Origin: a virus | Strand: one strand, 5' to 3' | Virus record (IMG/VR): IMGVR_UViG_3300044742_000113 | Span: 1 to 28,235 of that record | Length of the DNA: 28,235 nucleotides | Shown: positions 1-27,960 of the stretch, piece by piece | Layout: every line of letters begins with the position of its first letter | Position numbering within the stretch: position 1 is the first letter of the stretch | The notes under the pieces: model-generated | Told to the model about the DNA's origin: nothing | Seen by the model: only the letters and a program-made list of their open reading frames with translations | Databases searched by the model: none | Program-made: the position numbers and the translations under genes

Positions 1-249
1 TGGTCCATGCTTCAACTTGAAATACTTACCCAATCTATCTTGAGCCGCATCCTGTTCAGCAAAAGCTTTCTTAGATTCATGATAATCGCTGTTATAGCTA
101 TGTTTGGTGCCTAACCTATTGAAATAATATATTGATTTAGCTATATCAACGAAATGACGTTTTGAACCTTCATATTCATCTGCTTGTTTTGGAGTTGTTG
201 GAGGCGCGAAATGCTTGCCAAAGATATCGTCAAATGAATCTCTTGTCAT
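1..249 (-). CDS. Tagged paralogue A (MTRDSFDDIFGKHF N-terminus), partial
   Basis: This gene starts with ATG at 249 and runs off the left edge of the window, so 83 codons are visible and the C-terminus is missing. It opens with MTRDSFDDIFGKHF, followed by a Pro-rich linker and a block reading RHFVDIAKSIYYFN. Two other genes (start points 614 and 1882) begin with almost the same peptide and carry a similar HFxYLAK-type block further on, so the three are paralogues. The start overlaps the upstream stop by one base (TAATG), which suggests translational coupling. I do not recognise the family. The visible part is charged and soluble, with no membrane segment. The N-terminal peptide could be a sorting or packaging tag, but that is inference. 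Confidence 0.75.
   Translation of the reverse strand, partial: MTRDSFDDIFGKHFAPPTTPKQADEYEGSKRHFVDIAKSIYYFNRLGTKHSYNSDYHESKKAFAEQDAAQDRLGKYFKLKHGP
207..249 (-). repeat. 43-nt N-terminal tag repeat, copy 1
   Basis: This is the first of three near-identical 43-nt stretches, read on the minus strand, that encode the start of paralogous genes. Copies 1 and 2 share an uninterrupted core coding for FDDIFGKHF, and differences cluster around the variable fifth codon. The conservation holds at DNA level as well as protein level. Confidence 0.8.
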
Positions 250-614
250 TATGGTCGTCCAGTCATTGGCATATTTCTCATGACTTTCTTATAATAGAAG
301 TCCTCCAGGTCATTATCTGAATCATCTCTATGAACAGTTCCATGAGCACGAATATAATCATCAATATGTAGATTTTTAGTAAATGTTTCATGCATTTCTG
401 TATGGTGCTTTTCTAGAATCTTAGAATGGTTTTTATAACCTCCAGACTTATCAGGAAATGTATCACGTTGTTTATAGTGCCAGCGCATAGATTTAGAGAG
501 ATACTTGAAATGATTACAAGAGCCTAGAGCAAAATTAGTTTTTACAGGAGGACCAGAAGAAGAATCAGAGCCGAAATGCTTACCAAAGATATCGTCAAAT
601 ACGTCTTTTGTCAT
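249..614 (-). CDS. Tagged paralogue B (MTKDVFDDIFGKHF N-terminus)
   Basis: This is a 121-residue protein of unknown function. Residues 1-15 are the shared tag, followed by a Ser/Pro-rich linker (about 16-26) and then NHFKYLSKSMRWHYKQ, which matches the post-linker block of the other two paralogues. The rest is rich in His, Lys and Asp, with no membrane segment, and ends in an acidic patch followed by a basic tail. It lies in a tightly packed minus-strand operon: its stop overlaps the next start by one base and its own start is one base from the preceding stop. The layout of fixed tag, linker and divergent body resembles phage cargo proteins sorted by a leader peptide, but no such role is shown here. 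Confidence 0.8.
   Translation of the reverse strand: MTKDVFDDIFGKHFGSDSSSGPPVKTNFALGSCNHFKYLSKSMRWHYKQRDTFPDKSGGYKNHSKILEKHHTEMHETFTKNLHIDDYIRAHGTVHRDDSDNDLEDFYYKKVMRNMPMTGRP
572..614 (-). repeat. 43-nt N-terminal tag repeat, copy 2
   Basis: This is the second copy of the tag-coding repeat, at the start of the 249-614 gene. It is nearly identical to copy 1 over the FDDIFGKHF codons, including synonymous positions, which suggests recent duplication or recombination between copies. Confidence 0.8.
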
Positions 615-615
615 T

Positions 616-1224
616 TTAAGTAAACAATCCTTTTAGTCTCGTCAAGAGTGATTTTTTATTAGTATTAGGCGGTTTATCTCTTCTTGGATCAAAAGGTTTA
701 GCAGGGACTAGATTACCTTCCCCATCTCTCTTTGGGCCTTCATAACGTTGCTTATAGAAGGCGGAATCTGTATGACCAACTTTCACTGCACTGTCTGGAT
801 AATTGCCATTTCTGGTCGGAGCCACTTTGCGATGCTTCTCAAAGTTGTGCATCTGATCATGACTAGGATCAACATAATGTTTGATTTCTGGAATTTCTAC
901 CCAGCAATGGTCTACCATGCCTTTTTTGGGGTGTTTATACCAGCTGGAGCATACATGAGCCGAGGGGTAGTGTTTCTTGAGTTCATGCATGGCCGCGAAT
1001 GCAAGGGTGCCACACTCTCCATACCTGGAGAAATGATTGGGATGATTAGACTTACGTCGCAGGTCCACTGGATCATATTTACTCAATGGACCTTTTGCCG
1101 TTTTGTAATTGTATTTGTCACGATAATAAGATGTTCGCGCTCCAGAAGCTATTTGCCTGATATGTTGTTCATGTTCTGACTTAAATCGTTCAGTTAGTAT
1201 TCCACGCAATGGTTTCTTCTTCAT
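616..1224 (-). CDS. Transglutaminase-like cysteine protein
   Basis: This 202-residue protein shows a Cys-His-Asp arrangement typical of the transglutaminase/papain-like fold: Cys71 in RYGECGTLAFAAMHEL, His106 in VDHCWVEI and Asp119 in HYVDPSHD. In this fold the Cys lies at the start of a helix and the His and Asp on following strands, which fits the spacing seen. The likely activity is amide-bond hydrolysis or transfer, but the substrate is unknown. The N-terminus (about 1-60) and C-terminus (about 150-202) are basic and probably disordered. The start at 1224 overlaps the upstream stop by an ATGA. It does not carry the MTKD tag of its neighbours. The function call is from motif reading only. 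Confidence 0.6.
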   Translation of the reverse strand: MKKKPLRGILTERFKSEHEQHIRQIASGARTSYYRDKYNYKTAKGPLSKYDPVDLRRKSNHPNHFSRYGECGTLAFAAMHELKKHYPSAHVCSSWYKHPKKGMVDHCWVEIPEIKHYVDPSHDQMHNFEKHRKVAPTRNGNYPDSAVKVGHTDSAFYKQRYEGPKRDGEGNLVPAKPFDPRRDKPPNTNKKSLLTRLKGLFT

Positions 1225-1499
1225 CTCTTCTGTGGTTCCAACTCCTTTTTAAGTTGTTCCCGAGCCCAATCTACATATTGTTTCTTCATTTGCTCATTTG
1301 GAAACTTCTCAAGTAGTTCTTTATATAAAGGAGGATCATCAACACCAATAGTTTGAAGCGCATCAATAGTATCCTTGACTCGCACATGATGTTGTTCTTT
1401 CTTATGCATGATATATTCTTTGAGAGACAGAGACTCATGACCACAACGATTGCAGAAAACGATCATGTCTCCATTTTTACTATAACGAATCTTGCTCAT
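1221..1499 (-). CDS. Small C2H2 zinc-finger protein
   Basis: This 92-residue protein has one classical zinc-finger pattern near its N-terminus: CNRC, twelve residues, then H-x4-H (ending KEQHH), within about residues 15-38. The rest (about 40-92) is charged and predicted helical, with two Asp/Pro-rich turns. A single C2H2 finger can bind DNA, RNA or protein, and nothing visible decides between these. It sits in the overlapping minus-strand operon, sharing ATGA-type junctions with genes on both sides. C2H2 fingers are far less common in phages than zinc ribbons. The gene is certain enough from its coupling; the function is unknown. Confidence 0.7.
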   Translation of the reverse strand: MSKIRYSKNGDMIVFCNRCGHESLSLKEYIMHKKEQHHVRVKDTIDALQTIGVDDPPLYKELLEKFPNEQMKKQYVDWAREQLKKELEPQKR

Positions 1500-1882
1500 G
1501 GTAATTGGTCCTCTATATTATGATGATGCCAAACGTCATGAATGGATTGAGTTGAGACGTGATCATGTTTCATAGGATCAATAGCATCATCTAAATCTTG
1601 TCTTGCGTCATCTCCATGCACATGATCAAAGAAATGATGATTTATCTCACCATTTGCATCATCCCAAGCTTTATCATGAAGCTTTTTTGCTGATAAATCC
1701 TTTGCTTTGCTAGCAATCCACCAGCCTTTGATATGATGATGGAGTTTTCGCGCTAGATAAGTAAAATGCTCCAGACCGCCTTTCTTTCCAGCATACTCCC
1801 GCGCAGCATAAGGTATATCTTCTTTCTCAGCTGGAGGCCCAAAATGCTTACCAAAGATGTCATCAAATGCATCTTTTGTCAT
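1496..1882 (-). CDS. Tagged paralogue C (MTKDAFDDIFGKHF N-terminus)
   Basis: This is the third paralogue, at 128 residues. It opens with MTKDAFDDIFGKHFGPPAE, then has a short linker and EHFTYLARKLHHHIKGWW, which aligns with the post-linker blocks of the other two. The second half is strongly His- and Asp-rich and contains repeated DD, HH and HHH clusters, which could bind metal. There is no membrane segment or signal peptide. Its start overlaps the stop of the upstream gene (1879-1882), so the two are probably coupled. The body shares little with paralogue B, so only the N-terminal module appears to be under strong constraint. Function unknown. Confidence 0.8.
   Translation of the reverse strand: MTKDAFDDIFGKHFGPPAEKEDIPYAAREYAGKKGGLEHFTYLARKLHHHIKGWWIASKAKDLSAKKLHDKAWDDANGEINHHFFDHVHGDDARQDLDDAIDPMKHDHVSTQSIHDVWHHHNIEDQLP
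1840..1882 (-). repeat. 43-nt N-terminal tag repeat, copy 3
   Basis: This is the third and most diverged copy of the tag-coding repeat, at the start of the 1496-1882 gene. Several differences from the other copies are third-position changes, so the peptide is better conserved than the DNA. Confidence 0.75.
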
Positions 1883-2130
1883 GCTACTTCTGCTTTATCT
1901 GTCAAACACTTGAAGCCAATAATACGATACCTCTTCTTACCTTTGTAATACTGGATGCGTTCTTTCTTAGATAGCTTTTGTAGTTCCGCGACTCCAAAAT
2001 CATAACATCTGGCATCTGTAAACTCAGGAGGAACATAAGCTCTGAGTTCCAAATAACAAACATTAGCAGAGTAATCTGTTGGTTTTTTCACAGTAGACAA
2101 ACACATAACAAAATATAGTTCTTGAATCAC
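1879..2130 (-). CDS. Conserved small hypothetical protein
   Basis: This is an 83-residue protein that I do not recognise. It reads as a compact soluble domain: a hydrophobic N-terminal strand (ELYFVMCLSTV), a predicted strand NVCYLELRAYVPP, a helix around ELQKLSKKERIQYY and a final strand KRYRIIGFKCL. Three cysteines are present (residues 10, 25 and 42 approximately) but without a clear metal site. The start is uncertain: ATG at 2130 gives the full frame, and a second ATG eight codons later is also possible. It overlaps the next gene by an ATGA and follows the Lys/Pro-rich gene after three bases, so it belongs to the same transcription unit. Confidence 0.6.
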   Translation of the reverse strand: MIQELYFVMCLSTVKKPTDYSANVCYLELRAYVPPEFTDARCYDFGVAELQKLSKKERIQYYKGKKRYRIIGFKCLTDKAEVA

Positions 2131-3922: not shown

Positions 3923-5725
3923 TTACGCCGTCAGAAACTCTACCGTTGCATTGATGCCAGCTGGTTCTATGCCAAGGATCGTGTTCTGTGCGGCTTTGAT
4001 ATCCAAATCCTTGGGTCGAGCATATATTCTTAGACTACCACCATCATAGCTGTCAACCATGAAATTCGCTAGTGTTATTTTTCCCATCTTGTAATCTATT
4101 GTGCCGATATTTCTAATAGTTGTGTAGTTCTTTCCATCATTCTTTACAATGCGAACAACTCCATTTCCATCATCAGCAAGAGTAACAGCCTGACCATTGA
4201 AACGAAAAGCAGAAGAGCGAATTGTCGTCAAGTCATCAATTGGATAAGTTGTTTCCGAATGAGAGAAAGAATCGTCCAGTTCTGTTGCAAAATTTACAAC
4301 CATATTTTGAGGTGTTGCAAGTAATGGAACAGTTTTCTTGTAGATTTGAAGTTTCGTTATATTTGAGATAATCGAAGGATCAACTGAATTTATGATATCT
4401 ATGAGTGTAGAAGAGCGCAGAACAACATTGAAGTTATTAAGGGAGTTCAAGTGATAATCATTGATAGCAGAAACAACAATAGTTCTTATGTTCTCTTCCG
4501 ACACACTTGATATGTTAATGTTATAGCGAACTAAAGTATCAACAAGAACGTAAGTAAATTCAGGCTGAACAAAGATAGGTTTGATGGACAGATTACAACG
4601 GCGTTTCAAGAAGTTGTAATACTCTGTTTTTTTGGAATCAGGAAGTCCATCAGTATCAGCAATATCAACAGAGACGAAGATTTTACCAAAGCGCGGAGGA
4701 TCAACATCTTCTCCCCCGAAAACTGCAACCGCTGTAATCTCGGGAAACTTCTCTCTTAGAAGGACTTCAGCATCTTGAGCAATAACAAGTCTTTCTTGCA
4801 CCTGAAAGTGTCTGGGCGCAATGAACCTGATTGAGTCATTGGTTTCAGGATCAGAACCGCCAGCAGAAACAGCTACCGTTTGCACATTTGGAGTGTTCGT
4901 TAGCTCATTACCAATTCCTGTTGGATCAAAGTTGATAGTGAAGAACTTAGCGCCCGCTGCTTTTGGGCCTTTGGTGATACGATAATCAAGAATAACAGTA
5001 GAGCCTGACTTTGGTTTCTGACCAATTATACCATTTCCAAAGAGAACTTCATAGAAACCAGCCTCAGAAGCTTGAAGAAAGAAGACTTTAGAAGAAGCAC
5101 CTAAATCAAGTAGTGTTGTTGCTAGAGTATATTTCTGACCAATACTTGAGTTATCTTCAAACACAACTACAGATAAGCTTTCCGTATCCACATTTTTATT
5201 AGTGATTCTGAAACGTTCATTTTCAATTGAGTTGGTAATGACATATGAATCCTTGAGATATACTCCTTCATAGATATCTGTTTCAAAAGAGAAGCTGGTA
5301 TTAGGGGAAGCACAGATAATAGTTTCAGGAATAGAAAAGATAAAAGATTCATTTTTAATAAGAGTTGAGAAGGATGAGCCCTTAGGTATGATGTAGGGCT
5401 GAGTTTCGCTTGTAGCCTCAAATGTGACACTCACAGTGGCCTTTGGGGAGCGAGCCGAGCGTGCAGTGTAGTTCAGGTCTTTGGCATGGGACAGGATTGA
5501 ATCGCGAAGTTGAGCCGAATCCAGAAAAGACTCCGCAATGTTCATATTGAGATAGAATATATTACGTTGCGTATTGATTGTTAGAAGGTCTAAAAGAACT
5601 GCCATAGCTGAACCTTCAAAATCGTAGTCACGTAGGATGTTTTGTGAACGTAAAAACTGCTTTAGTGCATTTCGTTGGAGGTCAAAATCTAAATCTACCA
5701 AATTCAAGCTTGTATTAGATGGCAT
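3923..5725 (-). CDS. 6: Baseplate wedge protein gp6
   Basis: This 600-residue protein is the T4 gp6-type wedge subunit, a member of the gp6/baseplate J family. gp6 dimers form the continuous ring that ties the six wedges together and rearrange when the tail contracts. The N-terminal signature is visible: DFDLQRNALKQFLRSQ, then FEGSAMAVLLDLL and NTQRNIFYLNMNIAESFL, followed by a DSILSHAKDLNYTARSARSP block typical of the family. The middle has the J-like core (FGNGIIGQKPKSGSTVILDY) and the C-terminus is beta-rich. T4 gp6 is 660 residues, so this is slightly short but intact. The start at 5725 has AAGGGA upstream. The neighbouring gp25 is its direct partner. Confidence 0.93.
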   Translation of the reverse strand: MPSNTSLNLVDLDFDLQRNALKQFLRSQNILRDYDFEGSAMAVLLDLLTINTQRNIFYLNMNIAESFLDSAQLRDSILSHAKDLNYTARSARSPKATVSVTFEATSETQPYIIPKGSSFSTLIKNESFIFSIPETIICASPNTSFSFETDIYEGVYLKDSYVITNSIENERFRITNKNVDTESLSVVVFEDNSSIGQKYTLATTLLDLGASSKVFFLQASEAGFYEVLFGNGIIGQKPKSGSTVILDYRITKGPKAAGAKFFTINFDPTGIGNELTNTPNVQTVAVSAGGSDPETNDSIRFIAPRHFQVQERLVIAQDAEVLLREKFPEITAVAVFGGEDVDPPRFGKIFVSVDIADTDGLPDSKKTEYYNFLKRRCNLSIKPIFVQPEFTYVLVDTLVRYNINISSVSEENIRTIVVSAINDYHLNSLNNFNVVLRSSTLIDIINSVDPSIISNITKLQIYKKTVPLLATPQNMVVNFATELDDSFSHSETTYPIDDLTTIRSSAFRFNGQAVTLADDGNGVVRIVKNDGKNYTTIRNIGTIDYKMGKITLANFMVDSYDGGSLRIYARPKDLDIKAAQNTILGIEPAGINATVEFLTA

Positions 5726-7266: not shown

Positions 7267-7854
7267 TTAAAATTTTCCTCTTTGTGGTCTGTTCCAGCTT
7301 CCTGATCGGATGCCAGTTCTAGTTTGATTTTGTGTTGCTTTGAAAGGCACGCGAGTTCCCCCCGATTGTTGTTTGTGATGAGCAAGAATATCGCGAGGCT
7401 TTGGCGCTGTGCGTCTTAGTCCAGGCATAGCATTTCCTGGCCGAGTTGATATTGGCCGGTTTGATCCTCCCATACCGCCGCCTGTTTTGAAGACACCAAA
7501 AGGCGTTTGCACAGGGATGTTGCCTTTTACAGCCTGACGCACCATTGCCATTTTTGGATTGTTATAGAGCCCAATCTTTTGATAAACAGATTGCTTCATG
7601 GCACCTATGCTATACAGCTTTCTTGGAAGTCCGCCGCGCAGTCTTTTGAAGACACTTTTCTTTAGGGCTGTAAGACCAATGGCTCTATCAGCAGAAACAC
7701 CAATATGTCTCATCGTCGCAATGTTAGTGCCTAAGAAACCACCACTTTCATCTAAAATTTCTCTAAGTTTTTTCAATTTGTTTTTATACCATCCAAAGAA
7801 GTGCGAGTGCGATTGACATGAAAAAGGAAACCTGTAGGGCGACCGAAACATCAC
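7267..7854 (-). CDS. Basic protein of unknown function
   Basis: This frame encodes up to 195 residues. The N-terminal 25 or so residues have an odd composition (MMFRSPYRFPFSCQSHSHFF). From about residue 26 comes a helical region (KLKKLREILDESGGFLGTNI, then LTALKKSVFKRLRGG). The last 90 residues are Gly-, Pro- and Arg-rich and strongly basic. The start is uncertain: GTG-ATG at 7854/7851 has AGGAAG upstream but lies inside another open frame (7784-7927), and TTG near residue 28 is an alternative. It sits between the endolysin region and the PAAR gene. The basic, low-complexity C-terminus suggests contact with nucleic acid or an acidic protein. No family recognised. Confidence 0.55.
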   Translation of the reverse strand: MMFRSPYRFPFSCQSHSHFFGWYKNKLKKLREILDESGGFLGTNIATMRHIGVSADRAIGLTALKKSVFKRLRGGLPRKLYSIGAMKQSVYQKIGLYNNPKMAMVRQAVKGNIPVQTPFGVFKTGGGMGGSNRPISTRPGNAMPGLRRTAPKPRDILAHHKQQSGGTRVPFKATQNQTRTGIRSGSWNRPQRGKF

Positions 7855-10559: not shown

Positions 10560-10955
10560 ATGTCTGATCGCAGAATCTCCGAAAAAACGAAGATTTTGAT
10601 CAAAGCTCGCCAACTTATCTCTAAAAAGATAAATTGGACAATTAATATTTTGGCTAGAAATAAGAAAGGGGAAGTAACAGCCACATATCATGAAGATGCG
10701 TTTTCTTTTTGTGCTTGGGGTGCTTTAGATAAAATTGCTGGAACGAATATCATCACATATAATGATTTTGATGATAGATTTCATGCGCGTAAACCAATAA
10801 CTTATGAAGTCGGACATATTTTACAAGAAGTTTGCGGACAAGCTGTAGCTCCCTACAATAACAATCACACTCACGAGGAAGTTTTGCAATGGTTTGATGA
10901 CGCCATTGCTCTGTCGGTGGAAAAAGATCAGCTAGCGGAGAAGGCCAATGTCTAA
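10560..10955 (+). CDS. DUF6197 family protein, copy 1
   Basis: This 131-residue protein belongs to DUF6197, a family of small phage and plasmid proteins without a known job. Its features are an N-terminal helix with a Trp-ending segment (ARQLISKKINWT), a FCAWGALDKIAG block with the family Cys/Trp-Gly-Ala core, a helix (YEVGHILQEVCG) and the C-terminal signature HEEVLQWFDDAIALS. The second copy follows immediately, and a truncated third lies at 2819-3052. It heads a plus-strand operon under a sigma-70-like promoter, which suggests early expression and a host-directed rather than structural role. Confidence 0.75.
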   Translation: MSDRRISEKTKILIKARQLISKKINWTINILARNKKGEVTATYHEDAFSFCAWGALDKIAGTNIITYNDFDDRFHARKPITYEVGHILQEVCGQAVAPYNNNHTHEEVLQWFDDAIALSVEKDQLAEKANV

Positions 10956-11364
10956 CCGCAAAATCTCCGAGCGCACGAAAGTTTTTATTGGAGCAAGAGA
11001 ACTTCTTAGTAAAAAAGAGCGGTGGACACAGGGCACTACTTGGCGTGATGATGAAAATGGACTTCGTAGTTTCTGTATGATTGGTGCTTTAGAAAATCAG
11101 TTTTTGGAGCATTATGAGCGACGACAACTATTTTATTATTATACAGGTTATGCGGCGCGCATTATTGGAGGAAGTATCGCCGCATTCAATGATGACAAAG
11201 GACGACGGCATGAAGAGGTGTTAGCTGTGCTTGACACCATCATTGCAAAATCTATAGCCGATGATCAGAAGAAGAAAGGGGAGGCGAACAATGAAGGAGC
11301 CGAAGTATTCAAGGCGACAGACGATTGTAAAGTTTCACGATCAACACAGCTGGAATTGGCATGA
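10948..11364 (+). CDS. DUF6197 family protein, copy 2
   Basis: This 138-residue paralogue of the preceding protein begins MSNRKISERTKVFIGARELL, against MSDRRISEKTKILIKARQLI in copy 1, so the pair arose by tandem duplication. The core SFCMIGALENQF and the C-terminal HEEVLAVLDTIIAKSIADDQ are kept. After that the two differ, with an extra 25-residue tail here that overlaps the start of the next gene by 74 bases. It overlaps copy 1 by eight bases and has GGAGAAGG ahead of its ATG. The two copies may form a hetero-oligomer or act on different targets. Confidence 0.75.
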   Translation: MSNRKISERTKVFIGARELLSKKERWTQGTTWRDDENGLRSFCMIGALENQFLEHYERRQLFYYYTGYAARIIGGSIAAFNDDKGRRHEEVLAVLDTIIAKSIADDQKKKGEANNEGAEVFKATDDCKVSRSTQLELA

Positions 11365-12386: not shown

Positions 12387-12932
12387 TTACTCTTTTTTCT
12401 TGGCCGTGAATCTGCTGTTTGAAAATTCTGGTGCATAATTGAAACCCCATTTCTCCCCAGTGTGTAGGTGTAATTTACTACGGAACAATCCCCCAAGTAT
12501 CCCAGGCCCGACATGCTGCATCTCTATATCAGAGTATTGAGATAGCTTGCGCCAAGTCTCACGTCCGCCCTTAGTTTGTATATCAGATGAATATAATGTC
12601 AAGCGATGATTTGGATGTGACATGAGATGATGATAGAATTCATGGGCCGTGATAGTTGATCCTTTTCGGCCCAAAAGATTAGCTATTTTGAAAATCCCAT
12701 TTCTTTCTGATCCATTGACTTGCATATCAACTTGCTTCATTTCTGGATTATAGGCATGATAAGCTATTACTCGGATGCCTTTACGAAATATCTGATGACC
12801 TGAAGGCATAGTTGAAACAGGTCTATTCCAACGCCAAAGATTAGCACGCACATCTCTGGGAGTATCGCTTGTAATTCTCTTATCATTCATGGGCCATGGC
12901 GATTCTTGAAGAAATTGCTTAAATGTGAGCAT
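12387..12932 (-). CDS. Putative internal head protein with capsid-targeting-like N-terminus
   Basis: This 181-residue protein begins MLTFKQFLQESPW. T4 internal proteins IPI-IPIII and related proteins begin MKTYQEFIAEA, the capsid-targeting sequence that directs them into the prohead and is cut off by protease gp21. The spacing of aromatic, Phe and Glu residues matches. The body has an AHEFYHHLMSHPNHRLTLYS block and then SDIQTKGGRETWRKLS, a pattern I associate with small acetyltransferase-like or cargo proteins in phages. A second gene with the same kind of N-terminus lies at 15063-15998. If the reading is right, it is packaged with the DNA and injected. The catalytic role is unknown. Confidence 0.6.
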   Translation of the reverse strand: MLTFKQFLQESPWPMNDKRITSDTPRDVRANLWRWNRPVSTMPSGHQIFRKGIRVIAYHAYNPEMKQVDMQVNGSERNGIFKIANLLGRKGSTITAHEFYHHLMSHPNHRLTLYSSDIQTKGGRETWRKLSQYSDIEMQHVGPGILGGLFRSKLHLHTGEKWGFNYAPEFSNSRFTAKKKE

Positions 12933-13512
12933 TTTTTGTGAGTCCTTTGTTCCAAGGAATATTTCCTTTTAGAGATTCAGATATCTTCTTCTTAGTTTCT
13001 TCTGAAGGACTTTCTTTATGTTTTCCAATGTTGCTCAAGCTTATTTTTCGTTTCGCTTCTTCAGTATGCTTAGACCCAAGCCGCGCTAGTCTCATTTTTT
13101 CTAATGTTTCTGGTGTCGCTTTTTTACCTTTTCTATTAGGTAGGCGATTTTTAGCAGCTTCTCGCATTTTTAATTTTGTTTCTTCAGAATGCTTTTTACC
13201 GTAAAAAGGATTATGTGCTCCATTTTGATCAAGATAATTCGTTACTCTACATTTATTATAGTATTTATTTCTAAGTTCACTATCATCTATTTTACTAAGC
13301 CATATAGCTTCTTTTTCTAATAATTCTTTTCTGTTGGTATAAACTTTTTCTATAATTCTGCGTTTGAAATCTTGTGGTCTACGACGATATGCATCTCTCA
13401 TACTATTAGAACTACATATATATCCATCATCTATTGTTCCCCAATGACTTCCTATATAAAATCGCTTGTATTGTTTATCACGCCAAATATACACAAATCC
13501 ATAGTTATGCAT
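12919..13512 (-). CDS. GIY-YIG homing endonuclease with NUMOD3 repeats
   Basis: This 197-residue protein is a free-standing homing nuclease. The GIY-YIG module is read as YGFVYIW (residues 4-10) and RFYIGSH (about 17-23), with the conserved Arg/Glu region KELLEKEAIWLSKI. The second half has three or four NUMOD3-type DNA-binding repeats built on HSEETKLKMREAAKNR, TPETLEKMRLARLGSKHTEE and SEETKKKISESLKG, ending in PWNKGLTK. T4 Seg enzymes have this layout. It sits between the spike beta-helix gene and a cargo gene, overlaps the latter by 14 bases, has AGGAG before the ATG and carries its own late promoter (13546-13553). It probably entered as a mobile gene. Confidence 0.92.
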   Translation of the reverse strand: MHNYGFVYIWRDKQYKRFYIGSHWGTIDDGYICSSNSMRDAYRRRPQDFKRRIIEKVYTNRKELLEKEAIWLSKIDDSELRNKYYNKCRVTNYLDQNGAHNPFYGKKHSEETKLKMREAAKNRLPNRKGKKATPETLEKMRLARLGSKHTEEAKRKISLSNIGKHKESPSEETKKKISESLKGNIPWNKGLTKNAHI

Positions 13513-13545
13513 GTTTTACTCCTAACATAAAAGTTACTGATAGGA

Positions 13546-13553
13546 GTATTTAG
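13546..13553 (-). promoter_or_regulatory. Late promoter CTAAATAC upstream of homing endonuclease
   Basis: The minus strand reads GCTAAATACTCCTATCAG, a CTAAATAC -10 element followed by a CTAT stretch as in the T4 consensus. It lies 34 bases ahead of the endonuclease ATG and is separate from the spike genes upstream. Confidence 0.6.
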
Positions 13554-13566
13554 CATTTGCGAGTGC

Positions 13567-14100
13567 CTATGGATTTATAGAAACGATTCCGCCAATTATT
13601 GTGTGAGTTCCACCTGTTTCAGTTGTCATATTACCAGCAACTTTCATATTCATATTACCTTTGATGTTCTGGTTCATGTTACCTTTCACCCCAAGATAAG
13701 CATCTCCAGCAACAGCAGCTTTCATGTTTCCGCCAACAACCATATTGGAATGACCCCCAACAACCACGTCAGCATCACCTTTTACAGTTACGATTGTTCC
13801 TCCGCTATTGTTTTCACGTTTATGTCCATGAGTTTTTACATCTTGGTTTTCATCAATAGTAATAGTCACGCCGCCTTTGTTATACTCTTGTTTATTGCCA
13901 ACAGTAAGCTCAACCTTGCGACCATCGGGAGAGATTTCTATATATGTCCCTTTCTTGTGGGCGAACCGAATCCGTTCCTTTCCAGGCGTGTTATCAATAT
14001 GAATCTCATGCCCAGCCTCAGAAATGAAAGCTTGATTATAAGGATACTTTGATTCATATGAAGTCTTTGCAATGCGCGTTTTTTTATCTTTACCAGCCAT
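13567..14100 (-). CDS. Central spike beta-helix protein (gp5 C-terminal part as separate gene)
   Basis: This 177-residue protein matches the C-terminal needle of T4 gp5. About residues 100-165 contain repeated short units with Val-x-Gly steps (VKGDADVVVGG, MVVGGNMKAAVAGDAYLG, VKGNMNQNIKGNMNMKVAGN) typical of the triple-stranded beta-helix, which trimerises into the membrane-piercing spike. The region before it (EIHIDNTPGKERIRFAHKKG, then TYIEISPDGRKVELTVGN) is the shared connector found in gp5 and VgrG proteins. In T4 this is fused to the OB and lysozyme domains; here it stands alone, downstream of a coiled-coil gene and the OB gene. The tip should carry the PAAR protein from 6967-7260. Confidence 0.85.
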   Translation of the reverse strand: MAGKDKKTRIAKTSYESKYPYNQAFISEAGHEIHIDNTPGKERIRFAHKKGTYIEISPDGRKVELTVGNKQEYNKGGVTITIDENQDVKTHGHKRENNSGGTIVTVKGDADVVVGGHSNMVVGGNMKAAVAGDAYLGVKGNMNQNIKGNMNMKVAGNMTTETGGTHTIIGGIVSINP

Positions 14101-14103
14101 GAT

Positions 14104-14493
14104 TTATGTAATTTCCTTTTCTAATTGTTCTAATTCATCTTCTAGCTTACTTATTGCTGCTCTTATTTCGTTTTCCGACTTAATAAGCTCTTCAGTTTGT
14201 GGCTCAATATCTAACAAATCCTGAAGCATCTGGCGAAGTCGCTCTAGTTCAGCTAGTATCTCATCTCTTCTCTTTTTCTTGTCTTCATTCTTTTGGTTGT
14301 TTGGATTAGAGAATGCTTGAGCTACTTCAGCCATCATACTTCCAAGATTACCAGCCCCAACAGCTTGTTCCATTGTTGGGTTGCCCTGAGACTCCCGTAA
14401 ACTCTTTACTAGGTCCAAAGCCTTTTTGATTGAGCCTGAAACATTATCTGGCGTTTTACTCTTTGTGAAGTCTGTCGCTGATTTTCTACTCAT
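14104..14493 (-). CDS. Coiled-coil protein between spike parts
   Basis: This 129-residue protein lies between the two spike genes. The N-terminal half is Ser/Lys- and Asn/Gln-rich (with a run NPNNQKNEDKK near residue 70). The C-terminal half is a long charged helix with Leu/Ile heptads, for example ILAELERLRQMLQDLLDIEP and AISKLEDELEQLEKEI, that should form a coiled coil. It may link or chaperone the spike parts, or replace the missing lysozyme segment structurally. The start at 14493 is preceded by AAAGG and its stop is three bases from the beta-helix gene. No family recognised. Confidence 0.65.
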   Translation of the reverse strand: MSRKSATDFTKSKTPDNVSGSIKKALDLVKSLRESQGNPTMEQAVGAGNLGSMMAEVAQAFSNPNNQKNEDKKKRRDEILAELERLRQMLQDLLDIEPQTEELIKSENEIRAAISKLEDELEQLEKEIT

Positions 14494-14502
14494 TATAAAC
14501 CT

Positions 14503-15063
14503 TTAGGCATAAGCATATTCCCCAATTGAATGGTTTTGTTTCTCATCTTCATCTACTTCTTTACCCTTTTTCTTTCCATAGGGATTGTCACTTTCTTTCT
14601 TTGCATAGTCTGTTATACCTTTTTGGTCATAGTCTTTTTTATCTGAGGCATAACGAAAATCGCCTCCACCTTTATCTTTGTCGCGAGAATGACGGTTCAA
14701 GTCATGATTGCGCCCTTGGTTGTTTAGTTCTCCTTCTCCACTTTCATCTTTACCTGTTTTACCGATTGAGCCTAAAAGCATAGGTTTCTGTTGATCGCCA
14801 TCCATATAGAAACCAATCATATAGGAATTTTCTGTAGCGCCTGTCAATGGGCCGCCGATGCCTCCATCTTGCGGATTTGAAACGCTGGCAATAGGTCTAG
14901 CCCAATGCAATTGATTGTCTGGAATACCGCCCTTGTCGTCCTGATAGCCTACAGCGCGAACACGCAAGCGGCCACCTTGCTCGGGGTCTTTGCGATCTAC
15001 GACTTCCAGAATAACATGTCTGCCTGCCCCACCATAACTTGACTTTGAAGGATGAGATGTCAT
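14503..15063 (-). CDS. gp5-type OB-fold spike protein
   Basis: This 186-residue protein matches the N-terminal OB-fold domain of gp5/VgrG. The beta-barrel core is GRHVILEVVDRKDPEQGGRL, then RVRAVGYQDD, with a second half around LHWARPIASVSNPQDGGIGG, SYMIGFYMDGDQQKPMLLGS. In T4 this domain binds the hub gp27 trimer. After about residue 100 the chain is a Gly/Asp/Lys-rich low-complexity tail to the end, with no lysozyme domain at all. The gene starts at the stop of the cargo gene (TAATG-type overlap). It works together with the hub gp27, whose gene follows two genes upstream. Confidence 0.85.
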   Translation of the reverse strand: MTSHPSKSSYGGAGRHVILEVVDRKDPEQGGRLRVRAVGYQDDKGGIPDNQLHWARPIASVSNPQDGGIGGPLTGATENSYMIGFYMDGDQQKPMLLGSIGKTGKDESGEGELNNQGRNHDLNRHSRDKDKGGGDFRYASDKKDYDQKGITDYAKKESDNPYGKKKGKEVDEDEKQNHSIGEYAYA

Positions 15064-15998
15064 TATTGTAATTTACCTCCGCGTCTTTTGAATGGAAGGA
15101 CGAACTGCCGAAATTGGCCTCTTCCTTCTCGCCCTTGTGGAATTTCTGGTTGTGGATGCGGTTTATTTAGCGGTCCACCAGATAGTCTTTGCTTCATTAT
15201 TTTTCTGACATGAGGATCAGGATCGTTGGCTAGATGTTGAATAGTATGAGGTTCCGCATAAGACGCAACATGGGCTCTTACTGTTGGATCAGGATCATCA
15301 GCAAAATGGTGCAGTTTGATGCCAGCGTTCAAAAGATGGGCATGAACTTCTTTTGTAAAATGTGTATCGTCATTATCAGTGCCAGGGATTTGATAATTAT
15401 CTGTTCTACTTACATGATCGCTTCCTTTAGCATGTAGATATTGAATATGTCCTAATCTATCCATCGCAGCAGTTGAAGTGCGTCCATGTAAATTTCTGCC
15501 TCCTGGAAGATTCTTAATATGATATATAAGCTCATCATGGGACATTTTTGTTAGAGGATGTTTAGGTCGCTCCCATTGTTCATCAAATCCAGTATGAGGG
15601 ATTCTCTCCATTTTCTCCCCCCACTCAACAGGAATTTGGTGATATGATAAAGCTCCTTGTGTTTGAGTTTCTGGAACACGATTACCATGGTTATGTTGTA
15701 TCCAATGCTGTGTTCTTTCATTTCCATGATGAATCATAAAAATATTTCCATTTCTTAGATAACCATGTGCATTCGTGTCCCCTGATCTATGAGGAGTATT
15801 CGTGCAGAAGTTTGTTCCTTGGCCAAAATCATAACAGGCTTGGGGAGTTTTTAGATGATAGATTTTTACATTATCCTCGCTGTGAATCAAGTCGGCGCCT
15901 GGATGATGTAATGCAACGCTTCCATCTGGATTAGCCAAATAATGATCTAGCTGCCGTTTTGACATTGATTCATAAAGAAACTCATAAAAGGTTAGCAT
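15063..15998 (-). CDS. Putative internal head protein with HEAT-like repeats
   Basis: This 311-residue protein begins MLTFYEFLYES, which like the 12387-12932 protein resembles the T4 capsid-targeting sequence. Residues about 45-65 have a FGQGTNFCTNT block; the pattern GxGTxWC is common in a group of phage proteins of unknown action. The middle is rich in His, Asn and Gln, with several HH and HHH groups. Residues about 230-280 contain two HEAT/LRV-type repeats (DDPDPTVRAHVASYAEPHTI and NDPDPHVRKIMKQRLSGG). Repeats of this kind mediate protein contact. It lies between the hub and spike genes but does not look like a baseplate part, so it is probably packaged cargo. Confidence 0.6.
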   Translation of the reverse strand: MLTFYEFLYESMSKRQLDHYLANPDGSVALHHPGADLIHSEDNVKIYHLKTPQACYDFGQGTNFCTNTPHRSGDTNAHGYLRNGNIFMIHHGNERTQHWIQHNHGNRVPETQTQGALSYHQIPVEWGEKMERIPHTGFDEQWERPKHPLTKMSHDELIYHIKNLPGGRNLHGRTSTAAMDRLGHIQYLHAKGSDHVSRTDNYQIPGTDNDDTHFTKEVHAHLLNAGIKLHHFADDPDPTVRAHVASYAEPHTIQHLANDPDPHVRKIMKQRLSGGPLNKPHPQPEIPQGREGRGQFRQFVLPFKRRGGKLQ

Positions 15999-16002
15999 CT
16001 TC

Positions 16003-17232
16003 TTATCCCTTTTTATTACAATTGAAAGTTGATGTTGCTTGCACAGTCTTGTTTACTAATTGAAGTTCATGACACACTTCAGTTACAAGATATTCTCCTG
16101 ACATATCTGAGCGACCATATCCATCAATATCACCCATTGGAGGCAAGAGATTCAGGTATATTCCTTTTCCTACTGTGACATACATTCCTGATTGAATAGG
16201 AACTTTCACCCGCATTCCTGGACCATTCTGAAACAACGCGGCAGAAAAGTGTTCTTGTGGGCTTTTCTGGTTTGGATCAACAGAAGTCGGCTGATGTGCT
16301 CCATCCATTACACCATAATTAGCAACGCCACCTAGTTTACCTCCAATACCTGGGATGCTGCCAAGGATAGAGCCCATACTTTTAGCTTGAATTTTGTCAA
16401 TAGCTCTGTTTTTGGTGCGCATATCAAAAAGAGACTGACCAGCACCTTGAGCCCTAGCAACGGAGTCTGTGCTGGCGCGGCCTTTGTCATCAACGTTCGC
16501 TTCAGCAACGATAATCACATTTCTTTCTCTCAGGATATCCAAAGGCCACTGTGAACCAAGGGTATGAATTTGGTTGAAGGTTTCTTGGATGCCCATCGTC
16601 GCAAACAGAACTTCCAAAGGAGAAAGGACATGGTGTTTTGCATCTTTGAAGAATAAACAGTTGCCCGAGCCTCCAAAGTTACAATGCTTCTTTATATCAT
16701 CAATCGCTTTGAATGGTTTGATAGCAGATTTGATATAGCCTTCCTTTGAGATAGGACCATTGGAAGGTTGTTTGATTTCCAAAGAGCCGCCAATATACTG
16801 ATTGAAAATAGCTGAAATAGCTGATGTGGCTGGAATGTTCTTATAGGAGTTTTGCACGAGGTTCTTTGCATCACTGAAGTATTCTGCACCGATCAACTCT
16901 ATATTATAAGTGACACAACGGGGATTACGACTGGTTTGTTGGCCATGAACAGAGAACACATAAAGTGTTGTCTCATATATCTTAGGCTCATCACAATCCC
17001 AGGCCACAGAACAAGCCTCACCACCACGTAGATTCATGTTTTCAATGATGTTATTGTGATCCTCAACGACAAGCTTTGCTGTATGATAAGGTTTATAGAT
17101 GCTTTCATAGATTGAAATAGAGCGAAGGTGGCCAAGAATATTCGCATCGGGAAGAGGATTACCAAAAGCATCCAAACTACCCGTTGACAAAGAAAAAGAA
17201 CGAATATTAACCTGGATTGGAAAATCAGTCAT
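16003..17232 (-). CDS. 27: Baseplate hub protein gp27
   Basis: This 409-residue protein is the gp27-type hub, a trimeric ring that joins the tail tube to the spike. The pattern fits the family: an N-terminal barrel half (ISIYESIYKPYHTAKLVVED), a middle half with IELIGAEYFSDAKNLVQNSY, then NCLFFKDAKHHVLSPLEVL, and a C-terminal barrel with MSGEYLVTEVCHELQLVNK. T4 gp27 is 391 residues. A Gly/Ala-rich loop (about 285-310) is longer than in T4. The neighbours are the spike OB gene, gp53 and the gp48-like cap, forming a baseplate cluster. Confidence 0.88.
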   Translation of the reverse strand: MTDFPIQVNIRSFSLSTGSLDAFGNPLPDANILGHLRSISIYESIYKPYHTAKLVVEDHNNIIENMNLRGGEACSVAWDCDEPKIYETTLYVFSVHGQQTSRNPRCVTYNIELIGAEYFSDAKNLVQNSYKNIPATSAISAIFNQYIGGSLEIKQPSNGPISKEGYIKSAIKPFKAIDDIKKHCNFGGSGNCLFFKDAKHHVLSPLEVLFATMGIQETFNQIHTLGSQWPLDILRERNVIIVAEANVDDKGRASTDSVARAQGAGQSLFDMRTKNRAIDKIQAKSMGSILGSIPGIGGKLGGVANYGVMDGAHQPTSVDPNQKSPQEHFSAALFQNGPGMRVKVPIQSGMYVTVGKGIYLNLLPPMGDIDGYGRSDMSGEYLVTEVCHELQLVNKTVQATSTFNCNKKG

Positions 17233-18110
17233 TATTCTTGTAGTTTCTTTCTACGCTCTTCAACTAGAGGTAAAGTATATTGTGCATCAATCAAATAAAT
17301 ATTCTTGTTTCTTTCATTGCGTTCTCTTTCCCAATCAAAGTAATAAGTCGGAGTCCAATAAACAAACTCTTCATCGGGAATAACTTTGTCTAGTATATCT
17401 TGATTGATTACATTAGCAAAGGCATTAGAAGAAAGTCCAGTCAGAATTTGATTTGCTGATGTGTTACCTGTGATATGCTGGATTTTCACAACGGAAGAGT
17501 TAGCTATGATCACTTCCCCATTGCCAACTGTCGCTGTGCTCATACTGTTTTTGACTAGAACACGCTCGCCATTAGAAAACCCTGTATTTGCATTCAGAGT
17601 GATTTCCAAACGAACAAGTTGATTGGTATTGATAACCCAATCTTCTTGCCTACGCCTATAATGAAGTATCTTTGTGCCTTTTCCGAAATAGGCTGAATAG
17701 TATTTCTTCAGGGCTTCCGGGAGTATATCTTGATAATGAGAAACTGAGATTTCTTTGGTATCATCTGGCCAGTTTATAGCATAGTGTCGGACTTTCTGTT
17801 GTGCTTCTTCAATAGATCCATATTTCTTCTTGATAAACTCAATGAAATCTTCATCAGAGAGATACCAGTCATAGTAAGGATCAAGGATACCATTAGCTAG
17901 AAAGATTAACCATTCCAGATAAGAATCATTATAGTAGCCATAAGAGACTACATCAGGACGCATGTTATGTTGAATCTCATAAGGATAGAAAAGAACAGGA
18001 CGCCCGGCTAGATTAGGATTGAGCGCAATATTCTTAGCAATGTTCACACACTTTAGTTGATCATCACCATATTCAATTACAGGAAAGCGAGAAAAATAAA
18101 ATTCAGGCAT
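17232..18110 (-). CDS. 53: Baseplate wedge protein gp53
   Basis: This 292-residue protein is the gp53-type wedge subunit, which clamps gp6, gp7 and gp25 and anchors the wedges to the hub. The N-terminal block is characteristic: FPVIEYGDDQLKCVNIAKNI, a long helical part with VSYGYYNDSYLEWLIFLANG and DPYYDWYLSDEDFIEFI, then KKYGSIEEAQ. The C-terminal end (IYLIDAQYTLPLVEERRKKL) matches the T4 tail of the protein. T4 gp53 is only 196 residues: about 90 residues (about 165-255, beta-rich, with Asn/Ser/Val stretches) are inserted here. The gene overlaps its neighbours by one base, as TAATG-type junctions. Confidence 0.85.
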   Translation of the reverse strand: MPEFYFSRFPVIEYGDDQLKCVNIAKNIALNPNLAGRPVLFYPYEIQHNMRPDVVSYGYYNDSYLEWLIFLANGILDPYYDWYLSDEDFIEFIKKKYGSIEEAQQKVRHYAINWPDDTKEISVSHYQDILPEALKKYYSAYFGKGTKILHYRRRQEDWVINTNQLVRLEITLNANTGFSNGERVLVKNSMSTATVGNGEVIIANSSVVKIQHITGNTSANQILTGLSSNAFANVINQDILDKVIPDEEFVYWTPTYYFDWERERNERNKNIYLIDAQYTLPLVEERRKKLQE

Positions 18111-19063
18111 TATGGTGATCTTGGATTTGGATCGTCATTAGGATTACCACCGACGCCGCCACCTGGAGGAAAGTTACTATCGCCAGAATCACTACGAGTA
18201 TCATTCGTTCTTGGGCCGGTTACATCTCTTGGATCATTATTATCTTTGAAGTCCCCAGTCAACCAATACTCTAGTTCTAGAAACTGCATAGAAATTTCAA
18301 AACCTTCCGGGGCATTACCTCTTCCGCCTGGATTTAGTGGTGTTTGATTCGATTCTCTATAGAAAGCTGGCTGCCCGCCTGGAGTATAGTTTACAACAAG
18401 ATTTTCTAGAACACAAGGTTTGAACTTATACATATACTGTGAGTTTGGGTGAATTTCAGGATAGAAGATTTTGGGCATTTTGAACCAAGAAACCAGTCCA
18501 AGAGCTTTACTTACAATAGACGGCGACATTGCATTATTCAATTTTCTGATTATATCTTTCATTGTTTTAGATTCGGCTGGAGTCTTAGGAGAAATACGCC
18601 AAGCAAACTGTATTCTTTTGTATTTCGGGCCTTTGAGAAAGATAGTCAAAATATTATTTGGAGTGTAACCAAGATTTTTTATGACATTAACATCTGTTAG
18701 AGAAGCTAATCCGCTTAGAACCTGATTCAAAGGTTGTTCTTCATAATCAACAATATGGTTATCAATCAAACCAATAGGCAAAGGAAGTCTAATAATACCT
18801 TCAGGATTTATTTGGACCCGACTTGTTAGTGCTCCCCCTGTTGGATCAAAGAAATCTCGTTGATAGTTTGAAACAATCAATTGAAAATAATACTTTGGTA
18901 AATCATGAGGATAAGTAAAGGTAAACATGCTTTTTATGCCAGCAAATCTATCCTCAATAATGACTCTTGGATCACCAGCTTGATCAGCTACATTCATGTC
19001 CCACCAAGGTTGAAGTGGTGATGCGGCAGCATTTGCATTAGATAAGCCGGGAGTGATTGCCAT
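18110..19063 (-). CDS. 48: Baseplate tail-tube cap protein (gp48-like)
   Basis: This 317-residue protein fits the T4 gp48/gp54 group, which joins the hub to the tail tube. The tell-tale block is ILTIFLKGPKYKRIQFAWRI, then SPKTPAESKTMKDIIRKLNN, WFKMPKIFYPEI, MYKFKPCVLENLVVNYTPGG, QPAFYRESN and MQFLELEYWLTGDF. In other T4-like phages the same run of signatures marks the tube cap. T4 gp48 is 364 residues. The C-terminal 45 residues are Asn/Asp/Pro-rich and probably disordered. It could equally be named gp54-like. A late promoter lies upstream at 19097-19104. Confidence 0.75.
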   Translation of the reverse strand: MAITPGLSNANAAASPLQPWWDMNVADQAGDPRVIIEDRFAGIKSMFTFTYPHDLPKYYFQLIVSNYQRDFFDPTGGALTSRVQINPEGIIRLPLPIGLIDNHIVDYEEQPLNQVLSGLASLTDVNVIKNLGYTPNNILTIFLKGPKYKRIQFAWRISPKTPAESKTMKDIIRKLNNAMSPSIVSKALGLVSWFKMPKIFYPEIHPNSQYMYKFKPCVLENLVVNYTPGGQPAFYRESNQTPLNPGGRGNAPEGFEISMQFLELEYWLTGDFKDNNDPRDVTGPRTNDTRSDSGDSNFPPGGGVGGNPNDDPNPRSP

Positions 19064-19070
19064 TAGGTTC

Positions 19071-19078
19071 CTAAATAA
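19071..19078 (+). promoter_or_regulatory. Plus-strand late promoter CTAAATAA upstream of gp4
   Basis: The plus strand reads TTCCTAAATAAAACTATCAG, a CTAAATAA -10 element with a following ACTAT as in T4 late promoters. It lies 50 bases ahead of the gp4 ATG and faces the minus-strand promoter at 19097-19104. Confidence 0.5.
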
Positions 19079-19096
19079 AACTATCAGTGTTTCTTG

Positions 19097-19104
19097 GTAT
19101 TTAG
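19097..19104 (-). promoter_or_regulatory. Minus-strand late promoter CTAAATAC upstream of gp48-like gene
   Basis: The minus strand reads TTGATTTTCCTATACTAAATA then CCAAGAAACAC. It shares most positions with the gp25 promoter at 6400-6407, including the TTGATTTTC block upstream and AAGAAACAC downstream. Together these define an extended element of about 30 bases. Confidence 0.7.
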
Positions 19105-19127
19105 TATAGGAAAATCAAAACGTAACA

Positions 19128-19646
19128 ATGGCTAAACGGGGAGAACAACAAGTCTTTTATGAGCGAAACAACAGTCATTTCTATAAAGGACTGTTCAAGC
19201 CTCGGAATCCTAAGAAATACCGTGGAAACGCTAAGAACATCGTTTTTAGAAGCCATTGGGAGCTGGAATACATGCGGATGCTGGATGAGAAGGATAATTG
19301 TATCTCTTGGGCCTCGGAAGAGTTCTCAATAAAATACTACCATCCGATCAAACTAGGCTATAAGCGTTACTTTCCTGATTTTTTTGTTGAAATGCGCCAG
19401 AAAGATGGTAAGATATTCAAAGCTATTGTAGAAATCAAGCCAGCCAATCAGATTGCACCTCCAAAACGAAGACGCAATGGTAAGATGCAGAAGTTTCTCT
19501 ATGAAAGTATGACGTGGGCTGTAAATAGGGCGAAATGGGAAGCCGCTATGAAATTCTGCAAAGAGCACAACTTGAAGTTTTATGTGGTAACTAAGGACAG
19601 CAAAGAACAATTTGTCCTATTGAATGAGGAACAACTACAATTATGA
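19128..19646 (+). CDS. 4: Head completion nuclease gp4
   Basis: This 172-residue protein matches T4 gp4 (head completion protein), which closes the packaged head and has a TnsA-like nuclease fold. The signature RNPKKYRGNAKNIVFRSHWE is followed by WASEEFSIKYYHP, then RYFPDFFVEM and IVEIKPANQIAPP. Candidate active-site residues are Glu45, Asp84, Glu102 and Lys104, in the E-D-ExK order of such nucleases. T4 gp4 is 150 residues. It is the first gene of the plus-strand late operon; no strong ribosome site precedes its ATG. It may trim or protect DNA ends before the neck is added. Confidence 0.88.
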   Translation: MAKRGEQQVFYERNNSHFYKGLFKPRNPKKYRGNAKNIVFRSHWELEYMRMLDEKDNCISWASEEFSIKYYHPIKLGYKRYFPDFFVEMRQKDGKIFKAIVEIKPANQIAPPKRRRNGKMQKFLYESMTWAVNRAKWEAAMKFCKEHNLKFYVVTKDSKEQFVLLNEEQLQL

Positions 19647-19846
19647 CCGCAAAGATTAAAGATAAGCATCCAATAACAGGAATAGAAACTGAGATAGATG
19701 AAGGTGAGCTTTTTAAAGATTTGAAATCACTTCGTATGTCTGATCCTATTGAAGTTTTAATTGGCATCCTTTTGAATCAAGATATGTCTCCTGAAGATAT
19801 GGATGAAATTATAGAACGATTCAAAGTCTGGCCTAACAAAAAGTAA
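19643..19846 (+). CDS. Small conserved hypothetical protein
   Basis: This 67-residue acidic protein is coupled to gp4 by an ATGA overlap and to the next gene by a TAATG overlap. It has a strand-like N-terminus (HPITGIETEIDEGEL), a central helix (MSDPIEVLIGILLNQD) and a final helix (PEDMDEIIERFKVW). The layout suggests a small helical adaptor. I do not recognise a family, and its place between gp4 and the next late gene suggests a part in head or tail assembly. Confidence 0.65.
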   Translation: MTAKIKDKHPITGIETEIDEGELFKDLKSLRMSDPIEVLIGILLNQDMSPEDMDEIIERFKVWPNKK

Positions 19847-20487
19847 TGCCTAATCCTTTTCTAGAACAACTTAAAAGACTAGCTGCCTCTATCGGCATAA
19901 CGAACCAAAACTCTTGGGCCGCGCGCAAGTGGTTTGAGGGAATGGCTAGACGTGTTGTTTCTATGGATGGCAACCAGTATATGAATGCTCAACCTGATAA
20001 GCTTTTGAAAACACGAAACATCAATGCTTCAATGATCGGAAAGATGATTATGTATTATTATGATCCAAAAACGAAAGACAAGCTCCCCTATTATGATCGT
20101 TTTCCTTTGGGTTTCATTGTGGACTTAGCGCCAAAAGGACACTATATGATCAATCTTCATTATCTGTCCCCATTTCAAAGAGCGAAATTGTTTGATGCTC
20201 TCTATCAAGCCACGTTACAAAACCCTGGAACTGAAAAACAACGATTGAAGATTTCTTATGCGATTTTGAAAAGCACATCCAGGCTTCAAGCCTATAAGCC
20301 ATGTTTCAAGCGATATCTGTCCCTGCATGTGCGTTCTCGTTATCTTGTTGTTGATCCGGCCGATTGGGGCACAGTCATGATGTTGCCTCTAGCACGCTTT
20401 GAGAGAGGTGGCAAAGGCGGCGGCACAGTTGGTTCGCCAATTTCACAGACTAAAGTTTGGGCCGATAGCAGAAAGAAAATAAAGTAA
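19846..20487 (+). CDS. Conserved T4-type structural-module protein, role uncertain
   Basis: This 213-residue protein contains a block I have seen in many T4-like genomes near gp4 and gp53: MIGKMIMYYYDPKTKDKLPY, YDRFPLGFIVDLAPKGHYMI, then NLHYLSPFQRAKLFDALY. The middle (SYAILKSTSRLQAYKPCFKR) and YLSLHVRSRYLVVDPADWGT also look conserved. It has an N-terminal helix (NPFLEQLKRLAASIG) and a basic C-terminal tail with a Gly-rich turn. No catalytic motif is visible. Its place in the late operon, between gp4 and a tube protein, suggests a head-tail or baseplate assembly factor. I cannot give it a T4 gene number. Confidence 0.7.
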   Translation: MPNPFLEQLKRLAASIGITNQNSWAARKWFEGMARRVVSMDGNQYMNAQPDKLLKTRNINASMIGKMIMYYYDPKTKDKLPYYDRFPLGFIVDLAPKGHYMINLHYLSPFQRAKLFDALYQATLQNPGTEKQRLKISYAILKSTSRLQAYKPCFKRYLSLHVRSRYLVVDPADWGTVMMLPLARFERGGKGGGTVGSPISQTKVWADSRKKIK

Positions 20488-20488
20488 G

Positions 20489-21157
20489 ATGCCAGAGATT
20501 CAAGGGTTTAATATTCAGAAATTTAAATCTGTTATTGAACAAAAAGGACTCCATAAAAATAACAAGTTTCTTGTTTATTTTCCAGTCCCACAATTTATGA
20601 TGCTAGGGAGCCAAGGACGGAGCCAAGGATTTACGGATACTAATAGAACTATGCATTTTTGGTGCGACTCTGCAACATTACCTGGAGTGCAATTATCTTT
20701 GCGACAAGTTATAAGATATGGCTATGGTCCTGTTGAAAAGAAACCATTTGCTCCAGTTTTCAATGATGTCACGTTCACAGTGATGCAAGATGGTTCTAAT
20801 AAGAATTGGTCTTATCTTCATGCCTGGATGAGCACTGTGGTTTTATGGGATGCGCGGCAAGGAATTAATGGTTCAAGGGAGCAACAAATTAAACCTTTTG
20901 AAGTATTTTATAAAGAAGATTATAAGGTAGATATGACCGTGATTGCTTTTAATGATATGGGTAATCCAACAACGAAGATTATTTTCCGAGAAGCTTATCC
21001 ATTCACAATGGGCGATCTGCCTTTGAATTGGGCTGATAACAACACGATTATGAGAATACCTGTTTCATTTACTTTTCATGATTGGTTTTGGGCCTCGGTT
21101 CCTGAAAATGAAATGTTGCCTATTCCAACTCAACAACCCGAAATACCCCTGAAATAA
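20489..21157 (+). CDS. Tail-tube-fold protein (gp19/gp54-like)
   Basis: This 222-residue protein has a tube-like signature: FWCDSATLPGVQLSLRQVIR, then YGYGPVEKKPFAPVFNDVTF, VMQDGSNKNWSYLHAWMSTV and a closing MRIPVSFTFHDWFWASV. The order of a Leu-Pro-Gly strand, a Tyr-Gly-Tyr-Gly-Pro loop, strands ending in T(F/V)xxM and a Trp-rich helix matches tail-tube proteins of contractile tails. T4 tube gp19 is 163 residues and gp54 is 320, so this is intermediate. It could be the tube initiator or the tube itself. It sits two bases after the preceding stop and 16 bases before the gp26-like gene. Confidence 0.65.
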   Translation: MPEIQGFNIQKFKSVIEQKGLHKNNKFLVYFPVPQFMMLGSQGRSQGFTDTNRTMHFWCDSATLPGVQLSLRQVIRYGYGPVEKKPFAPVFNDVTFTVMQDGSNKNWSYLHAWMSTVVLWDARQGINGSREQQIKPFEVFYKEDYKVDMTVIAFNDMGNPTTKIIFREAYPFTMGDLPLNWADNNTIMRIPVSFTFHDWFWASVPENEMLPIPTQQPEIPLK

Positions 21158-21173
21158 AATCTAAGGAGATATT

Positions 21174-21878: not shown

Positions 21879-22030
21879 TGACGCATAATAGTCTCGAAAA
21901 CTATTATCGCACTAATTTTATGATGACATATCATCATCATTATGCTTTGAGTGATCTAGAGAATATGTTGCCTTTTGAATTGAATATATATTCGGATATG
22001 GTAAAAGAAGCACTACAAAGTAAGAAGTAA
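21878..22030 (+). CDS. Small tail-assembly protein, alone or as frameshift extension of gp26
   Basis: This 50-residue frame starts at ATG 21878, overlapping the gp26 TGA by one base, and reads MTHNSLENYYRTNFMMTYHH then HYALSDLENMLPFELNIYSD. Short C-terminal extensions of tail-assembly chaperones often show Leu-x-x-Tyr-Tyr, His-rich and Leu-x-x-[ML]-[LIP]-Pro blocks like these. It can be made by reinitiation at the overlapping ATG or by -1 slippage at 21863-21869. It lies directly before the tape-measure-like gene, where such extensions occur. T4 has gp51 at this place, but that protein is much longer. Confidence 0.65.
   Translation: MTHNSLENYYRTNFMMTYHHHYALSDLENMLPFELNIYSDMVKEALQSKK
21885..21907 (+). 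other. Hairpin 15 bases downstream of slippery site
   Basis: ATAATAGT (21885-21892) pairs perfectly with ACTATTAT (21900-21907) around the loop CTCGAAA. The stem is AU-rich and the spacer longer than the usual five to nine bases, so it may only modestly stimulate frameshifting, or could be a chance palindrome. Confidence 0.4.
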
Positions 22031-22036
22031 GTTTAA

Positions 22037-27806: not shown

Positions 27807-27828
27807 CTTCCGCACCGACTGCGCGGAT

Positions 27829-27880
27829 ACCGGCTAGGAAGAAAAGATTCGCCTCCGATCTTCCTAGCCGGTTCTTTTTT
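27829..27880 (+). terminator. Rho-independent terminator of the plus-strand late operon
   Basis: A 14-bp stem (ACCGGCTAGGAAGA at 27829-27842 with TCTTCCTAGCCGGT at 27859-27872) with a 16-base loop is followed by TTCTTTTTTT-type poly-T to 27880. It lies 22 bases after the stop of the three-domain lysin and is the clearest terminator in the window. It ends against tRNA(CAU) on the other strand. Confidence 0.92.
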
Positions 27881-27957: not shown

Positions 27958-27960
27958 AGT

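Follow-up and report, generated by a model that had tools for sequence, protein, structure and literature searches.

The window analysed here, an entire virus record 28,235 bases long that encodes a T4-like contractile tail module, was found to harbor three genes which, judged from sequence, constitute a lineage-specific orphan family with a conserved N-terminal tag. The conservation of the tag exceeds chance, and this short peptide is under strong purifying selection of its own. As the leading explanation, with a probability of about 0.4, the tag would be a docking peptide that resembles capsid-targeting sequences, stays uncleaved and is shared by a family of three internal proteins; docking, location in the head, the absence of cleavage and injection are all properties that we infer for the tagged proteins. 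The tagged genes and the repeat at their starts are located as follows.

1-249, minus strand: tagged paralogue A, starting MTRDSFDDIFGKHF; the contig end cuts the gene after 83 residues (the orthologue in the related contig L004 has 206 aa)
249-614, minus strand: tagged paralogue B, starting MTKDVFDDIFGKHF; 121 aa
1496-1882, minus strand: tagged paralogue C, starting MTKDAFDDIFGKHF; 128 aa
207-250, minus strand: near-repeat copy 1, 44 nt, tag of A
572-615, minus strand: near-repeat copy 2, 44 nt, tag of B
1840-1883, minus strand: near-repeat copy 3, 44 nt, tag of C

All three window genes begin with the 14-residue consensus MT[KR]DxFDDIFGKHF. The earlier note had described near-identical N-terminal peptides on three genes, and these N-termini were confirmed as quoted; because the genes lie on the minus strand, the positions 249, 614 and 1882 that it gave are the high-coordinate ends of the genes, where the start codons lie. 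The 43-nt near-repeats that it had also reported were recovered as a three-copy direct repeat of 44 nt, showing 84-89% identity to the reference copy and spanning the start codons of all three tagged genes. In addition, all three paralogues recurred, without change of order, in the second contig, L004, where they start with the tags MTKDAFDDVFGKHF, MTRDIFDDAFAKHF, and MTRDSFDDVFGKHF. The leader is common to the six proteins of the two contigs, with a pairwise identity of 10 to 13 of 14 residues.

A repeat that covers every start codon could itself be a DNA or RNA element, such as a translational operator or a recombination site, with the peptide as a by-product; however, the substitution patterns make this reading very improbable, as third positions are free, the amino acids are conserved and leader dS is about that of the bodies. 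In orthologue pairs, where leader and body had similar dS, dN was 0.03-0.17 in the leader and 0.45-0.57 in the body; in paralogue pairs it was 0.03-0.18 and 0.74-0.98, respectively. The leader values are rough, as they rest on 13 codons per pair. Third codon positions varied as freely in the leader as in the bodies. Because leader dS was close to body dS while leader dN was several-fold lower, the constraint on the tag acts on the peptide, and with leader dS undiminished, the leader is not explained by a nucleotide element or by recent gene conversion; the latter was rejected on this ground. Separately, an argument from an amphipathic helix in the tag was dropped, since its helical moments were not above those of shuffles.

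The bodies behind the tag had been described as divergent and unrelated, which was refuted. After removal of the first 14 residues, the bodies aligned far above shuffles and are homologous, with z reaching 12.5 for window C against B of L004, 8.9 for C against B within L004, and 7.4 for B against A within L004; for some body pairs with the truncated window A, the alignment alone was not above shuffles. The HFxYLAK-type block claimed to follow the linker is real, and the linker between tag and body varies in length. In the AlphaFold2 model of paralogue B, the tag forms a helix over residues 3-13 (low confidence), followed by an unstructured linker to residue 32 and a four-helix body with pLDDT mostly of 70-90; no significant match to the model was found among solved or viral structures. 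Pfam and PHROGs assigned no family to the tagged proteins, and comparison of all three with isolate phages gave no matches. The bodies are predicted to represent one small orphan helical domain, that is, a single homologous family. A 736-aa protein (L004:14196-16406) whose C-terminus resembled the tagged-family domain was set aside, the likeness being by eye only and missed by the profile.

The distribution of the tag follows the same family. Across 2.9 million viral contigs, FDDxFxKHF was N-terminal only in L004, and its matches in the remaining viral contigs were internal, in unrelated, short or chance frames; a scan for FDDIFGKHF returned zero matches, and a scan for MT[KR]DxF returned a varied set, none continuing into the tag. 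In genome contigs there were at least 119 motif matches, five of them near a possible start, with no convincing N-terminus among the matches listed. One further record (G023, IMGVR_UViG_3300043579_000150) equals window 13521-28235 over 14,715 identical bases and extends the phage by 19.4 kb; a profile search of these 19 kb revealed no tagged gene. The same search of 21 relatives besides L004 also revealed none, each absence being weak evidence in a set that consists mostly of fragments. The tag had been proposed to sit on variable cargo, yet in the viral contigs, the genome-contig matches listed and G023 it was seen solely on one homologous family, and no other gene of the same genome, where the earlier note had suggested looking, carried it, the 19 kb extension included. 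Because the bodies are homologous and the N-terminal occurrence outside the window is confined to L004, the tag is best regarded as the head of one paralogue family and not as a mobile tag on varied cargo. These results suit an ordinary paralogue family, nearly as likely as head docking, in which the N-terminal helix is a functional site for binding a host or phage partner or for oligomerising, while the rest has drifted and no packaging is involved: as the bodies are homologous, duplication is enough to account for the common start, the tag is restricted to the family, and the gp21 site is absent near the tag. Against this stand the adjoining and interleaved genes, which carry interchangeable head-type leaders, and the arrangement of tag, linker and domain, which resembles that of these leader-bearing neighbours.

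616-1224, minus strand: probable papain/transglutaminase-like protein between tagged genes B and C, leader MKKKPLRGILTE
7267-7776, minus strand: basic protein with a TTG start, leader MKKLREILDE (MKKLREILTE in the orthologue L004:1663)
12387-12932, minus strand: protein with the T4-type leader MLTFKQFLQE, its sole L/I-x-E site at E10
15063-15998, minus strand: protein with the T4-type leader MLTFYEFLYE, its sole L/I-x-E at E10, and weak HEAT/LRV repeats

The earlier note was correct that the tag differs from the T4 leader, but had overlooked the T4-type leaders on these four genes. In the window and its relatives, T4-type leaders occurred on seven of 102 genes (five sequences), compared with 0.63 expected from shuffling, and a stricter scan uncovered more of them in further relatives; sequence comparison thus supports N-terminal leaders on cargo-like genes as a common feature of this phage lineage. 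No relative of three leader-bearing neighbour genes was found in isolate phages. Elsewhere, four consecutive genes with T4-type leaders (MLTFHQFLIE, MLRFSQFIQE, MKRFAQFIRE, and MLSFSQFIVE) were identified at L265:8675-13070 (G022), a run that may encode a cluster of injected proteins. In the window, the protein at 12919-13512, encoded immediately upstream of a leader-bearing gene, looks by eye like a GIY-YIG homing endonuclease (YIWRDKQYKRFYIGSHWG..., SEETKLKMREAAKNR...).

The product of 616-1224 is probably a papain/transglutaminase-like enzyme, as indicated by its sequence and model: Cys71, His106, and Asp119 are conserved in its L008 homologue, and the papain/transglutaminase superfamily heads the list of its structure search (Z up to 7.3, at low model confidence). 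In its relatives the body is kept while the leader is replaced by MLSFGEFITLITE, MMKSFKQFIKE or MLTFKQFIVE. Because relatives swap T4-type leaders on the same body, MKKKPLRGILTE is placed in the T4-type class and is very probably equivalent in function to the T4 leader. The tag can be aligned to MKKKPLRGILTERF without gaps, with L/F6, I9, L/F10, E/K12, and F14, and has K where the protease-recognised E is expected. The similarity of the tag to MKKKPLRGILTE beats 99.7% of shuffles (0.003), MKKKPLRGILTE being one of six leaders compared and chosen post hoc, whereas similarity to the T4 leader itself was not significant (0.30 of shuffles reach it). A search of the six tagged proteins for L/I-x-E found no site near the tag, and four of them, one truncated, lack it wholly.

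3923-5725, minus strand: baseplate wedge of the T4 gp6 family (phrog_219, E 2e-140)
22037-25975: hub/lysozyme-like protein

As the gp6-family wedge is present, the phage belongs to the T4-like group; by this protein, the nearest isolates, with an identity of about 35-37%, are Caulobacter phage Cr30 and Sinorhizobium phages. The tagged genes lie in the tail/baseplate region, flanked by the gp6 wedge and, in the L004 contig, by another wedge gene, with baseplate genes around them. This setting would accord with a tag by which small effectors are fixed to the tail hub or tube and so delivered. This tail-docking explanation is nonetheless improbable: position says little, since head-type leader genes occupy the same stretches, and the analysis found no precedent for a tag of this kind in tails. 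The known part of the window phage excludes the head module, and a gp21-type protease was seen in the relative G004, which encodes gp20, gp21 (phrog_207, E 3e-60), gp22, and gp23. Furthermore, G004 harbors an ADP-ribosyltransferase exoenzyme domain protein (L032:12454-13320; PF03496, E 5e-16) with the leader-like start MKKLRHIV, beside the gp6 wedge and thus in the gene neighbourhood that contains the tagged genes in the window. In T4, the ADP-ribosyltransferase Alt is an injected head protein (PMC9026906).

Two further arrangements were observed in these genomes. A baseplate wedge gene is one 836-aa frame in the relative L008 (6309-8819) and is split into two frames in L004 (9744-13104), of 200 aa and about 666 aa, the latter with its own ATG at 11104; between them are two inserted leader-bearing genes (MSKKLREIINES and MKTFKQFIDEG). 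At window 10560-11364, two adjoining plus-strand genes with similar starts (MSDRRISEKTKILIKARQLISKK and MSNRKISERTKVFIGARELLSKK) form another duplicate pair.

Under head docking, the tagged genes would have arisen by old duplications, and their products would be small helical proteins composed of a helix-forming docking tag, a flexible linker and a helical domain that evolves fast. The tag would bind the scaffold core during prohead assembly, a role like that of T4 IPI, IPII, and IPIII, so that the head would come to contain the three proteins and they would be injected along with the DNA; because no L/I-x-E site is present, the tag would remain uncut and stay on the protein, unlike T4 leaders. 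This reading is favoured because of the peptide-level constraint, the variable linker and the separate modelled N-terminal helix, together with the T4-type leaders nearby, the leader exchange on 616-1224 and the likeness of the tag to MKKKPLRGILTE. It is also favoured by G004, with gp20 to gp23 and a leader-like ADP-ribosyltransferase beside gp6, and by T4, in which targeting is separable from processing and IPII and IPIII offer a precedent (PMC9026906). Conversely, it is weakened because the tag is never on an unrelated body, the gp21 motif is absent, the hydrophobics are shifted by two, and neither the helical moment nor the similarity to the T4 leader is above shuffles. The acidic paralogue C, in contrast to the basic internal proteins of T4 (PMC9026906), and the location of the genes in the tail/baseplate region weaken it further. 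A more specific proposal, which we consider rather unlikely, is that the tag serves as a second signal for capsid loading, independent of the protease, beside the cleavable T4-type leaders, with the internal proteins keeping it after maturation and through injection.

If the tag loads heads uncut, this would be a natural case in which targeting and processing are uncoupled, something at which T4 mutants only hinted, and an additional short peptide would be available for packaging foreign proteins into phage heads. Moreover, the T4-type leaders, swapped among relatives on one body, are suggested to single out proteins of uncultured T4-like phages as candidates for injection.

In the T4 leader, residues 4 and 7 serve targeting and residues 8 and 10 processing, with cutting after L/I-x-E (PMC9026906; see also PMC9958956); an Asp-10 leader variant reaches the head although it is not processed, and a common leader on diverged bodies is seen in IPII and IPIII (PMC9026906). 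Unlike the T4 capsid-targeting sequence, the tag has its hydrophobics at 6 and 9 and not at 4 and 7, two positions later, and bears K in place of E without the L/I-x-E cleavage site of the T4 capsid-targeting family; it is also confined to one homologous body family. The local T4-type leaders, unlike the tag, carry L/I-x-E at residue 10 or 12, on unrelated bodies, whereas the tag is like them (MLTFKQFLQE, MLTFYEFLYE, MKKLREILTE, and MKKKPLRGILTE) in being N-terminal, of similar length and in the same gene neighbourhood. As in the capsid-targeting sequences of T4 IPI, IPII, and IPIII, a short N-terminal peptide of 10-19 residues is near-invariant across several small diverged proteins, with hydrophobics spaced i, i+3, i+4, in the same phage superfamily.
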